DNA of 64,000 nucleotides, from the NCBI GenBank assembly GCA_039555135.1, contig CP114179.1, positions 992,001 to 1,056,000 on the forward strand, written 5' to 3'. Below, piece by piece: positions 28,901 through 54,566 of this stretch (the first letter of the stretch is position 1; each line of letters opens with the position of its first letter). The translations under genes and the position numbers were made by a program. Source of the DNA: Phycisphaeraceae bacterium D3-23. Its GTDB lineage: Bacteria > Planctomycetota > Phycisphaerae > Phycisphaerales > Phycisphaeraceae. The notes under the pieces were generated by a model. It was not told the DNA's origin, did not search any database, and was given only the letters and a program-made list of their open reading frames with translations.

Positions 28901-29305
28901 GCGACCTTCGCCGGCGACGCCATCATGCTCCACGACCCGACCCCCGACGACGACACCAACGGCGACTTCGTCCGGCTCGACTGCCAAGAACTCATCGCCG
29001 ACATGCGCGACACCGGCGGGCTGGGCGTGTGGATGTCGGACGACGCCCCCGCCCCCGAGATCAGCGTCGTCACCGCCGCCGGGCCACTCCGCATCCGCCG
29101 CGCGGGCATGGAGATCACCGGCAACCACCTGCGCTACGAAGGCCAAGCCCAACGCGTCGAAATCTGGGCCAACGAAAACCGCGACGTCCTCATCCAGCAA
29201 CAAGACAGCCCCGCCCCCACCCGCGCCGCCAAAGTGATCTGGGACCTCGCCCAAGACCGCATCGAAACCCTAGGCCTACGCGGCGTCACCCCGGCGGAGC
29301 GTTAG
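25949..29305 (+). CDS. giant LptA/OstA-like periplasmic protein, membrane-anchored
   Basis: An 1118-residue protein with one N-terminal membrane span (residues about 5-24, VVVGAAFGAAALVLSASIFL) and a very long periplasmic region. The region reads as successive OstA/LptA-like beta units: RGVFQGNVVVTLLKAEGQAV, ADFFGIGLVLKYNTARERIE, TATFVGDVTADHPDFDLEAE, VAVGDVRAEIEEQGNTINLA, TGKAEFHGGVAAVTRR and TATFAGDAIMLHDP, each pairing a 'modified layer' with a 'gain of function' phrase. LptA and LptC ferry LPS across the periplasm and are usually about 190 residues; this chain is several times longer and could span the gap alone. Linkers are acidic and Pro rich. The role in lipid-A/LPS transport is inferred, supported by waaA 2.7 kb away. 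Confidence 0.72.
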   Translation: MERRTVVVGAAFGAAALVLSASIFLGPPAGTQDIQGPDGESIGAAMPRHRPGEDAGVPGYSAEGGGYEVFELVGDNKARITLLDADSASTQGQGITHFMRPRFQIITTEFATTQVGIDDQGEPILKRGAPIGGQAMILSADAAEMEMDGNNPQRGVFQGNVVVTLLKAEGQAVILDPADPRYPLVNEVQRVYIDGDARFGLDTNEVRSNAPVHVTSAQADFFGIGLVLKYNTARERIEQLVVREGRYLMFNPDAQSPTAAGSDAPGADGPPNGQGSADSDEPDHPLGPSQFYIATFYDDIIVRDTDRALLEGDELNIRFSLGREAVEPEPVRPATEPVDADRATGFAPLAPPIPGMRLAQADTNTLPPLPPPFNPDLVPPINQGRSLYTAAPHEGVLITWTGALRLVPLNEQPEELEDDKDIAIALQGEHAYAQAMRDGKAHRIEGTSLRYLVSSQEVFAQGNENRPITIISTEAGTLTGGELVVNIPQGTATILGPGTLTQNPDDDGKQLTLAWTDRVDLELFLKEPDGEAVADDGRGISGQSQIAGIRTATFVGDVTADHPDFDLEAEQLAVDFLRPDEAAGVKNDPTRIQASVDVTVRAQGDAPDEQFAIGTQSLTITLGHDTDGEVYAKSMRALADVVITRPGSTLTCHRVDVAFALPSETEPPEAEDATRNARYAQVQQIVAVGDVRAEIEEQGNTINLAADHLLADVDADRLTLYATEEGALAEVIDVNEDRFLRGRHIVMDDQAQVVRVEGPGTLAARMEDPDQPGNPQANMTIDWQRAMRFNNATGKAEFHGGVAAVTRRTADTTDMTCDDLEVWFTQTKDVDADAGDENALHAAENDAPDAAPGEDETDLTNAIDATGRDVRRAVATGEVRFVAATRAAEQPDKPHSRVTITGPQLIFTNDALDAQGGDLPDPVETVVVNGPGTMLIEDYTPEDPADETDRAAEGSGGDPIAFTGKGQTAFLWQESMELDARANTATFAGDAIMLHDPTPDDDTNGDFVRLDCQELIADMRDTGGLGVWMSDDAPAPEISVVTAAGPLRIRRAGMEITGNHLRYEGQAQRVEIWANENRDVLIQQQDSPAPTRAAKVIWDLAQDRIETLGLRGVTPAER

Positions 29306-29321
29306 TCCCCTCCCCCCGCGG

Positions 29322-29343
29322 ACTGGTTGCTTCAGCAACCAGT
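29322..29343. repeat. palindrome family A, copy 1 (upstream of transposase relic)
   Basis: ACTGGTTGCT and its exact complement around a TC centre, 15 nt before the start codon of the transposase relic. It matches the element after that gene (29982-30007). Confidence 0.8.
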
Positions 29344-29358
29344 ACCAAGAAACTCACA

Positions 29359-29957
29359 ATGGACAAAAACCTCCGAAAATCCGCAGCCACCAAAACCCAC
29401 ATCTTCAAAGGCAACCACCGCTTCGAACACTGGTACGCCGACAACCAGACCTACTTCATCACCGCCCGCTGCCGCGACCAGGCCCCCGCCTTCGCCGATG
29501 AAGAAGCCAAACAAATCTTCTGGGACCGATTCGACCACTACACCCAGACCTACGGCTTCACCCCCTGGGTCACCTCCCTCCTCGACAACCACTACCACAC
29601 CCTCGGCTACCTCAAACGCGGCGAAGGCCTCGGCCCGATGATGCAACGCATCCACGGCTCCACCGCCAAACTCGTCAACGACACGCTCGACACCCGACTC
29701 AAGCCCTTCTGGCGCGAAGCCGGCCCCAAACCTACTTCGACGGCTGCATCCGCGACGAACAACAAGCCCGCAAGGCCTACCGCTACACCTGCATCCAGTC
29801 CGAGCGACACAACGTCTGCAAAGACTGGACCACCTACCCCCACACACGCATCAACATCGAACTCAAACGTGCAATCAAACGCGCGAACGAACTCAAGGCC
29901 TACATGGAAGGCGTCCCCTAAAAGCGCTACGAATACGATAAGAAACGCAAGCAGTAG
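29359..29957 (+). pseudogene. REP-associated tyrosine transposase-like gene, frameshifted
   Basis: Reads from ATG 29359 as a Y1/RAYT-like protein: FKGNHRFEHWYADNQTYFIT, then the HUH motif in LLDNHYHTLGYL, then MMQRIHGSTAKLVND and KPFWREAGPK. At about 29730 the frame breaks. In the +1-shifted frame the family continues with YFDGCIRDEQQARKAYRYTC, SERHNVCKDWTTYPHTRIN and a TAA at 29919-29921, so one base (probably an A in the CCCAAA run) has been lost. After that TAA the same frame goes on with KRYEYDKKRKQ to TAG at 29955. Relatives I remember end GVPYKRYE..., so the TAA may be a second lesion. The tyrosine-bearing YRYTC region is downstream of the shift, so the protein is inactive unless frameshifting occurs. 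Flanked by matching palindromes. Confidence 0.8.
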
Positions 29958-29981
29958 AGTCCCAACACACACTTCCCGCTC

Positions 29982-30007
29982 GGACTGGTTGCTTAAGCAA
30001 CCAGTCC
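29982..30007. repeat. perfect 26-bp palindrome, family A copy 2 (downstream of transposase relic)
   Basis: GGACTGGTTGCTT followed directly by its complement, 24 nt after the last stop of the transposase relic and upstream of the end of metG. Same family as 29322-29343, 38201-38226 and 54438-54463. Confidence 0.85.
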
Positions 30008-30040: not shown

Positions 30041-31741
30041 CTACTTCTTCTCCACCTGATACCGCGGGAACAACGCCTCCCCCTTCTCGATCGTCGCCCC
30101 CGGAACCAGTTGCCCCCACTTGACCCATTCCGCAAGGTCCCCGCGCCCGCCATCCTTCAACCGCTCCGCATAATGCCCGCACCCGATCCGCGACCAGAAT
30201 TCCTCGCATTTGTCGGGGATAAACGGCCAGAGCAACACCGACGCGATGCGCAGGGCTTCGGCACAGTTGTAAAGGATCGTGCCGACTTCGGGGAATTTCT
30301 CGGGGTCTTTGGCGAGCTTAAACGGTACGGTCAATTCAATAAACTTGTCAACTTCCTGGACGTACACAACTCCAGCCAAATATGATGCAGATAAAAGCAG
30401 CTTATCTGTGACGGCAATGAAGAACGCAACAGTTTCCTGCGACAATACAGCAAGATCCAGTTCACGAAGCTCACCAACATCTCTAGGGGGCATGTATTGT
30501 GTGGGACGAGGATCACCTGTAGCTAGATAGCTGGCACTAACCTGTGAACCAACATCTGGTAACACACCCTCAAAATACTTCCCAATCATATTCGACACTC
30601 GCGAGCACGAGTTCCCGAACGTGTTCGCGAGGTCGCTGTTGTACACCTCCACAAACAAGTCCGGCGAGAACGCGCTGTCCGTTGTCCCCAGCGGGCCGCG
30701 CGTCGCGAGGAAGTAGCGGAGCGCATCCAAGCCGAACTCATCGACGTAGTTATCAATCGCGGCGGGGTCGAGGAAATTGCCCAGCGACTTACTCATCTTC
30801 TCGCCCGACTCGCTCACCCAGTAGCTGTGCGAGTAGACGAGCTGATTCGCGGCGACGTTCGCGCTCCACACCCAGTCATAACCATCGCACTTAGATAGTG
30901 CCATCTGCAGCGCCGGCCAGATCGCGGCGTGGAACCACAAAATATCCTTGGCAATAAAGTGTGTCGCGCCGCTCTCCCAATACTTGCGTCGCTCATCATC
31001 ATCCACATACGTCAGGTAGTTGAACAGCGCATCGATCCAGACATAGATCGTCTGCTCGGCATCGCCCGGCACGGGGATCCCCCACCCGCCGCTGCCCGAC
31101 CGGCTGATCGGGATGTCGTTGGCTTCCTTGATCCGGTTGATGATCTCGTTCTTACGCGCCTCGGGCTGGACGTATGACCGCCCCGCCTCGTCCCGCGCTG
31201 CATAGAACGACAAGAGCGGCTCGCGGTATTTTTCCAGCTTGAAGAAGTAGTTTTTCTCGGCCTTCTTCACCAGCGGCTTGCCGTTCACATCGGATTTGTA
31301 GTCCTGCGCTTTGGCCTTGTTCTCCGGGACGTACTCTTCCTGGCCCGCGTCGTACCAGCCGGTGTACTCGCCGGCGTAGACATCGCCCGACGCGATCAGC
31401 GCGGCGACATACTCCGTCACTTTCTGTTTATGCCGATCGGACGAGGTCCGCACAAAGTCATCGTTCGTCATCTCCAGCTTCTCGAACGTCCCGCGGAACG
31501 CAGCCGCGTTCTGGTCGGCCCACGCCTGTGCCGACAGCCCGTGCTCGGCGGCCTTGTCGCTGACCTTCGCGGCGTGCTCATCGACGCCGGTGAGGAAGAA
31601 CGTGTCGTCGCCTTTGAGCCGGTGGTACCGGGCGACGACGTCCGCGACCATCGTCGTGTAGACGTGCCCGAGGTGGGGCTTGTCGTTGACGTAGTAGATC
31701 GGGGTCGTGACGTAGAACGTGTTGTTGTCGGGGCTTGGCAT
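30041..31741 (-). CDS. metG: methionyl-tRNA synthetase
   Basis: A 566-residue class I aminoacyl-tRNA synthetase. TPIYYVNDKPHLGHVYTT carries the HIGH-type motif (HLGH), and KMSKSLGNF is the KMSKS loop. VWIDALFNYLTY and WGIPVPGD are also typical. No CxxC zinc-knuckle pair and no C-terminal EMAP-type tRNA-binding domain are present, so it is the short form. The anticodon-binding helical domain occupies about residues 380-540. The stretch at about nt 30361-30540 inside this gene is unusually AT rich (hand count about 47% GC against about 67% at 31321-31380), although the reading frame and protein are normal. TACAAT lies 9 nt before the ATG. Confidence 0.95.
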   Translation of the reverse strand: MPSPDNNTFYVTTPIYYVNDKPHLGHVYTTMVADVVARYHRLKGDDTFFLTGVDEHAAKVSDKAAEHGLSAQAWADQNAAAFRGTFEKLEMTNDDFVRTSSDRHKQKVTEYVAALIASGDVYAGEYTGWYDAGQEEYVPENKAKAQDYKSDVNGKPLVKKAEKNYFFKLEKYREPLLSFYAARDEAGRSYVQPEARKNEIINRIKEANDIPISRSGSGGWGIPVPGDAEQTIYVWIDALFNYLTYVDDDERRKYWESGATHFIAKDILWFHAAIWPALQMALSKCDGYDWVWSANVAANQLVYSHSYWVSESGEKMSKSLGNFLDPAAIDNYVDEFGLDALRYFLATRGPLGTTDSAFSPDLFVEVYNSDLANTFGNSCSRVSNMIGKYFEGVLPDVGSQVSASYLATGDPRPTQYMPPRDVGELRELDLAVLSQETVAFFIAVTDKLLLSASYLAGVVYVQEVDKFIELTVPFKLAKDPEKFPEVGTILYNCAEALRIASVLLWPFIPDKCEEFWSRIGCGHYAERLKDGGRGDLAEWVKWGQLVPGATIEKGEALFPRYQVEKK

Positions 31742-38200: not shown

Positions 38201-38226
38201 GGACTGGCGGCCTAAGCAGCCAGTCC
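38201..38226. repeat. palindrome family A, copy 3
   Basis: 26-bp palindrome with one mispair, between exbD and the TonB-like gene. Relative to copy 2, the T-A pair at the eighth position is replaced by C-G, preserving the stem. Confidence 0.75.
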
Positions 38227-54437: not shown

Positions 54438-54463
54438 ACGGACGGGTTGCTTCAGCAATCCGT
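54438..54463. repeat. palindrome family A, degenerate copy 4
   Basis: acggacgggttgct and agcaatccgt around a TC centre, with a small bulge. Shares the loop-proximal ggttgcttcagcaa with copy 1 (29322-29343). Confidence 0.6.
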
Positions 54464-54566
54464 AAGCCCCCCTAAAAGCCCCGATAACTCACCCGCCCCC
54501 TACCGCTCCGCGCCCACCGCCCGGTCTGCCGATGTCCTACCGACGACCCCGACCCGGAGCGACCCG

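Follow-up and report, generated by a model that had tools for sequence, protein, structure and literature searches.

A decayed RAYT-like transposase gene and a dispersed palindrome family in a Phycisphaeraceae genome, probably a dead REPtron

In a stretch of 64,000 nt from the genome of Phycisphaeraceae bacterium D3-23 (the stretch is called the window below, its genome G000) a broken gene lies between two palindromes. A preliminary description, made from the sequence letters, had interpreted it as a decayed REP-associated tyrosine transposase (RAYT) bracketed by its own palindrome. The question is what such an arrangement represents: the remains of a REPtron, a degraded insertion sequence, or a dead gene with palindromes of another function around it. 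The upstream neighbour of the pseudogene is a large gene with its end at 29305. The downstream neighbour, which presumably codes for a methionyl-tRNA synthetase-like protein, lies on the opposite strand and ends at 30041. The features discussed below are collected in Table 1.

Table 1. Features of the pseudogene and of the related palindromes, in positions of the window
Feature	Position	Strand	Basis
Decayed RAYT-like HUH/Y1 transposase gene (pseudogene)	29359..29957	+	Profile matches of the N piece; 30/33 invariant columns kept
HUH motif (HYH within NHYH)	29590..29598	+	NHYH in 25/26, NHCH in 1/26 homologues
One-base frame change, approximate place	29728..29730	+	Read from the letters; in the same homologues, both pieces match adjoining segments
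Inferred catalytic tyrosine codon (YTCIQ; Y---Q motif)	29784..29786	+	Y142 and Q146 invariant in 26/26; aligned by eye with Y---NP of L132-L134
Premature TAA in place of the invariant Tyr187 (GVP-Y-KRY), a residue other than the catalytic-type Tyr	29919..29921	+	Homologue alignment
Left REP of the gene, oriented, with CGG foot and CTTCAG centre, AGTACC at its end	29320..29345	+	11/13 pairs
Right REP of the gene, symmetric, a perfect palindrome of 26 bp with CTTAAG centre	29982..30007	+	13/13 pairs
Diverged dispersed REP copy	38201..38226	+	4 mismatches to the consensus 26-mer, 11/13 pairs
Diverged dispersed REP copy, CTTCAG type	54440..54465	+	6 mismatches to the 26-mer, 9/13 pairs; 1 mismatch to the 16-nt core

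The frame opened by the ATG at 29359 carries the NHYH motif. The C-terminal part of the protein is read in another frame from 29730 to 29918, followed by the TAA at 29919 and a later TAG at 29955–29957. The frame break that had been proposed near 29730, ahead of the tyrosine region, is present in the assembly letters as a one-base shift at about 29728–29730. The codon of the catalytic-type tyrosine (29784–29786) is itself unaltered, but since the frame change precedes it, the window copy no longer has this tyrosine in frame. The TAA at 29919 is a second lesion, separate from the frame change; both are read from the assembled sequence. This stop had been suspected to replace a tyrosine, and it does occupy an invariant tyrosine column (Y187 of the homologue L024, conserved in 26/26 proteins). 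However, 29919 was ruled out as the place of the catalytic tyrosine because the homologue alignment puts its column at Y187, the catalytic-type residue being Y142. Of the 33 columns invariant in 26 open-frame homologues, the three lost from the window pieces lie at or after the stop. The N piece (29359–29727) scored 43.1 bits against the NCBIfam model of REP-associated tyrosine transposases, NF047646 (cut-off 80), and 16.4 bits against PF01797, the general IS200 model (below its cut-off of 23).

We searched 400 genomes of the same order, Phycisphaerales, for homologues of the transposase gene. At E 1e-5 there were matches in 23 genomes, 21 of them strong, the window's genome included; the matches in G338 and G383 showed 23–27% identity and are members of other subfamilies. 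Each genome holds 1–3 diverged matches, and open-frame homologues were present in 20 other genomes of the order. We aligned 26 open-frame proteins from 20 genomes. The window copy and a second relic from G000 (L010) were left out of this alignment, as were L011, L034 and L035 (other subfamilies), L033 (broken), L012 and L027 (duplicates of L039 and L013) and two further matches in G064 and G085. At E 0.001, NF047646 was the single NCBIfam model matched by these proteins, and it was matched by all 26. Their scores of 53.6–79.8 bits all lie below the cut-off of 80, L042 falling short by 0.2 bits, and PF01797 was matched by 10 of the 26 at E 0.01. A profile search across the phylum gave matches in 8 of 392 genomes, five from the same order (including the window's) and three from distant relatives.

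Every aligned protein contains NH(Y/C)H and Y142, that is, a HUH motif with one downstream catalytic-type tyrosine. The tyrosine is followed by glutamine at +4 (Y142, Q146), giving a Y---Q motif in 26/26 proteins and Y---NP in 0/26. The three distant relatives from the phylum-wide search (L132–L134) show Y---NP at the matching place when aligned by eye. A profile search of the PDB by sequence gave no HUH relative and one chance match (E 0.14). In the structural comparison, the predicted model of the homologues (mean pLDDT 84.9) was closest to 4ER8, the E. coli RAYT with its REP hairpin (Z 15.3 over 142 residues at 3.5 Å; Foldseek rank 1). IS608 came next (Z 11.8 over 103 residues at 2.4 Å), and ISDra2 also ranked behind 4ER8. 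Further down the list were Thg1 guanylyltransferases and ribosomal S6, which we take as reflecting a shared ferredoxin-like arrangement. The HYH codons, the NF047646 match and the RAYT-like predicted fold bear out the HUH motif and the RAYT-like layout first ascribed to the gene.

The left palindrome reads ACTGGTTGCT-TC-AGCAACCAGT (29322–29343, within the 26-mer from 29320), with 15 nt between it and the ATG. A gap of 24 nt separates the final TAG from the right one, GGACTGGTTGCTTAAGCAACCAGTCC, of which identical or near-identical copies were found elsewhere. Both spacings agree with those given in the preliminary description. Two further copies had been reported at 38201 and 54438; both are present, but as diverged relatives with 4 and 6 mismatches and not as identical copies. 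Allowing at most one mismatch, GACTGGTTGCTT gave 5 half-site matches in the window where 0.18 were expected, and 0 of 100 shuffled sequences reached 5. A looser and weaker test with GGTTGCTTNAGCAACC and at most three mismatches gave 6 matches in the window against 0.93 expected, a number reached by 1 of 100 shuffles. Chance does not explain the palindrome matches around the gene, since the 5 half-site matches stand against 0.18 expected and 28 sites of the genome lie within one mismatch of the core.

Across the whole genome G000, GGTTGCTTNAGCAACC occurs exactly at 23 distinct places and with at most one mismatch at those 28, both gene-flanking ones counted. At up to two mismatches there were 39+38 strand matches, compared to 6+9 for the reversed control. 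In the examined stretches of G000 we counted 36 copies at a limit of 7 mismatches to GGACTGGTTGCTTAAGCAACCAGTCC, with no copy exceeding 6, versus one for a shuffled sequence; the figure of 36 is not a density, because the stretches were chosen around known sites. Copies differ by base-paired changes on both arms, e.g. GGTCGC..GCGACC. Two main forms can be distinguished, one symmetric with CTTAAG, the other oriented and in most cases CTTCAG-centred. The latter is conserved in its 5' foot, which is CGG in 10/10 exact CTTCAG copies; with the next letter the foot reads CGGC in 7 and CGGA in 3. Among the 11 exactly symmetric copies the C of CGG stands on one strand only in 10 and on neither in 1. 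By a crude gene caller 28 of the 36 copies lie outside predicted genes, many of them near 3' ends and nine between convergent genes, in stretches that the same caller divides into 24% non-coding and 76% coding DNA. The second relic of the gene family (L010, L080, L098) is shorter and lies at C1:1062736–1062920 of G000, 6.7 kb past the window end. It is partial, shares about 80% DNA identity with the window copy and is the only other relic in this genome. We searched for the family palindrome within 1.5 kb of this relic and of the three other PF01797 genes of G000 and found none.

We analyzed the association between gene and palindrome in 28 genes including the window copy, scoring palindromes with an arm of at least 10 within 130 nt of a gene end. 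Such a palindrome flanks 16/28 genes (15/27 without the window copy) compared to 6/381 control windows, a contrast that looks stronger than it is because the control windows include coding DNA. Arm-10 palindromes are located in 14/28 upstream and 11/28 downstream flanks, and nine genes have both. CTTNAG-centred palindromes were found in 19 of 56 flanks (12 upstream, 7 downstream) and in 0/381 control windows. The remaining 12 of the 28 genes have no arm-10 palindrome within 130 nt, and a flanking palindrome is not a feature of every gene. Genes with more similar proteins also have more similar stems (Mantel r 0.66, 14 genes, 0/5000 permutations as high); this test used one hand-picked stem per gene and left out genes without a CTTNAG-centred palindrome as well as the broken L033.

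Dispersal was assessed with four patterns covering 11 gene-flanking palindromes. Nine of these recur in their own genome (those of the window copy, L017, L018, L024, L037, L042, L033, L030 and L026, the last with one further copy only), and such recurrence in the cognate genome was seen in G264, G274, G276 and G394 besides G000. The L022 / L036 palindrome occurs once in each of its own genomes and is not dispersed. Among 43 genomes, the window-type pattern reached at least 5 strand matches in 8 of 21 genomes with the gene and in 1 of 22 without it (G021). The G010-type palindrome gave 43 forward matches in G010, 7 in G025, 3 in G079, 1 in G000 and 0 in the other 39 genomes; G079 has palindromes, and the homologous gene was not found there. 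The G015-type palindrome was present in 2 of the 43 genomes, with five distinct sites in G015. Oriented copies carry an AGG foot in 20/20 cases in G010 (RAGG in 18) and in 22/23 cases in G264, G274 and G276 (RAGG in 18). Inverted close pairs of palindromes occur in G264 and G274. The single gene of G005 has no palindrome of arm 10 within 130 nt despite many in its genome. With exceptions such as G005 and L022 / L036, genomes with open-frame homologues often have matching palindromes both beside the gene and dispersed. The absence of the palindrome from such genomes, which would have refuted the preliminary interpretation, was therefore not borne out. The decay of the window gene, its RAYT kinship and its tie to a dispersed palindrome, as originally proposed, all survive testing.

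L030 (G015) resembles the window copy in the centres of its palindromes, CTTCAG upstream and CTTAAG downstream. This order is not general: of the 9 genes with palindromes on both sides, 2 show it.

None of the four congeners of G000, two of them less than 90% complete, gave a match to the transposase gene. The exact palindrome core was likewise absent from all four, with one near copy in G026. In this congener both gene neighbours are kept with 184 nt between them, compared to 733 in the window, and the 184-nt interval contains no hairpin of arm 10. The copy at 38201 is also missing from the matching place of G026, where the unaligned stretch measures 31 nt compared to 121 nt in the window genome. 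The intergenic DNA of G026 does not align with the window locus. These data fit either a gain and spread of the gene/palindrome pair in the window lineage or its loss in the congeners, with the enzyme dying later; which way the change went would be a matter of inference.

Comparison with known systems places the Phycisphaerales proteins near the REPtrons formed by RAYT/TnpAREP proteins, described as class 2 by Quentin et al. 2018 (PMC6006769). They share with these the HUH motif with one tyrosine, the RAYT fold and a low copy number (G000 has one partial relic in addition to the window copy), as well as gene-flanking palindromes that are dispersed singly, are lineage-specific and form inverted close pairs in some genomes. 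They differ in the tyrosine motif, which PMC6006769 gives as Y---NP for class 2 RAYTs and as Y---Q for IS200 transposases. They also differ in that all 26 stay below the NF047646 cut-off, and in the foot, which is AGG (mostly RAGG) or CGG in three palindrome sets here whereas GT[AG]G is canonical. TnpAY1 class 3 is characterized in PMC6006769 by NHVH, Y----Q (Q at +5), an atypical CnGA foot, a REPtron-like organization and Planctomycetes among the hosts. The host phylum, the organization and a glutamine in the tyrosine motif are shared. As to the foot, symmetric G000 REPs often have CGGA, but with C next to GGA on one strand only in 10 of 11; oriented G000 copies show CGGC more often than CGGA, and other genomes have AGG. 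The family is nevertheless set apart from the class 3 description by NHYH (25/26) and Q at +4. By motif the Phycisphaerales proteins therefore belong to neither class as PMC6006769 describes them, because they combine NHYH with Y---Q at +4 instead of Y---NP or NHVH with Q at +5. With the IS200/IS605 transposases of IS608 and ISDra2 they share the HUH/Y1 fold, Y---Q and a gene between two hairpins; in contrast, those have DH[VI]H where NHYH is found here and lack the extra C-terminal part ending in GVPYKRY. PMC3733652 describes TIRYT genes as RAYT-like, with terminal inverted repeats of which some are self-complementary, and without a GTAG tag. Flanking repeats of this kind are found here too, but the TIRYT motif GGGGWSAS is, by eye, not shared by the family palindromes.

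The Y---Q motif speaks for the alternative of a degraded IS200-like insertion sequence, with the two palindromes as its ends (left CTTCAG, right CTTAAG) and the dispersed ones as solo ends or MITE-like derivatives. All 26 proteins have this motif, as IS200-type TnpA does in the motif table of PMC6006769. The whole unit is absent from congener G026, and the difference between left and right palindrome is common to the window and L030. On the other hand, 2/9 is a small share of the genes with palindromes on both sides, HMM and fold comparison favour RAYT over IS200 TnpA, and single palindromes are far more numerous than units. Near-identical multi-copy units, as in IS200/IS605, are lacking in G000: its one other relic is partial at 80% DNA identity, and genomes of the order hold 1–3 diverged matches. 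We consider this explanation unlikely. Less probable still is a function of the palindromes as intrinsic transcription terminators or as binding sites of proteins, with their position around the gene being incidental. Their frequent location outside predicted genes (28/36) in stretches that are 24% non-coding, with many near 3' ends and nine between convergent genes, would agree with such a function. However, TTTT within 10 nt on the 3' side was seen in 0/36 copies on the plus strand and 1/36 on the minus strand, the exact core is absent from 4/4 congeners (with the one near copy in G026), and the stem sequence varies by lineage together with the transposase. A role as terminators was rejected because T tracts are lacking and the palindromes are lineage-specific.

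The best explanation, to which we assign a probability of roughly 85%, is a dead REPtron that left behind an orphaned REP population and belongs to a RAYT lineage restricted to the order. In related genomes the frame is open, and many of these genes come with matching palindromes of their own. Based on the published RAYT/IS200 mechanism, the substrate of the intact enzyme would have been single-stranded DNA in which the palindrome forms a hairpin, with a short foot on its 5' side, and the enzyme would have cut at the palindrome edge by its HUH-metal site and tyrosine. Joining of the REP into new single-stranded sites would have produced the 28 or more recognisable, mostly intergenic copies. 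In the window lineage the gene has lost its frame and contains a stop, and the copies remain. Without the enzyme in cis the REPs would be stranded as passengers, possibly with a remaining role as hairpins at 3' ends.

As a dead REPtron the locus is ordinary in kind; the Y---Q motif and the AGG/CGG feet are its two departures from canonical systems. We tentatively raise the further idea, which we would not rate as probable, that the Phycisphaerales proteins form a TnpAY1 lineage of their own, intermediate between insertion sequences and REPtrons. Such a lineage would combine the RAYT fold and REP dispersal with an IS200-type Y---Q, AGG/CGG-footed CTTNAG palindromes and hairpins whose loops are not alike on the left and right of at least two genes, as may be the case for the ends of insertion sequences. 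If so, the window would be a natural knockout with orphaned REPs beside congeners that never expanded REPs. Our literature searches gave no description of this RAYT lineage of Phycisphaerales. The origin of RAYTs from IS200-type transposases and the maintenance of REPs in genomes are discussed as open questions in PMC6006769 and PMC8266576. A RAYT fold with an IS200-type tyrosine motif and palindromes that vary with the protein offers natural enzyme-substrate pairs for recognition tests, and in a genome with a dead enzyme and surviving repeats REP decay can be traced without the enzyme in cis.

Some further observations concern other genomes. G021, in which no gene homologue was found, contains five GGTCGCTTAAGCGACC-like sites and is a second candidate for an orphan REP population. 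G005 (L013, L027) has two palindrome types, a GGTYRC type with 16+15 strand matches and a GGCCCGCTTMAGCGGGCC-like type with 16 sites. Long palindromes with arms of about 18 bp, possibly fused inverted pairs, are located downstream of the open-frame genes L025 and L039. Upstream of L034 (G383), a member of another RAYT-like subfamily, lies an inverted repeat with 31-bp arms of GGGGTCAGACTCC units, and it is this repeat that fits the GGGGWSAS motif given for TIRYT repeats in PMC3733652.
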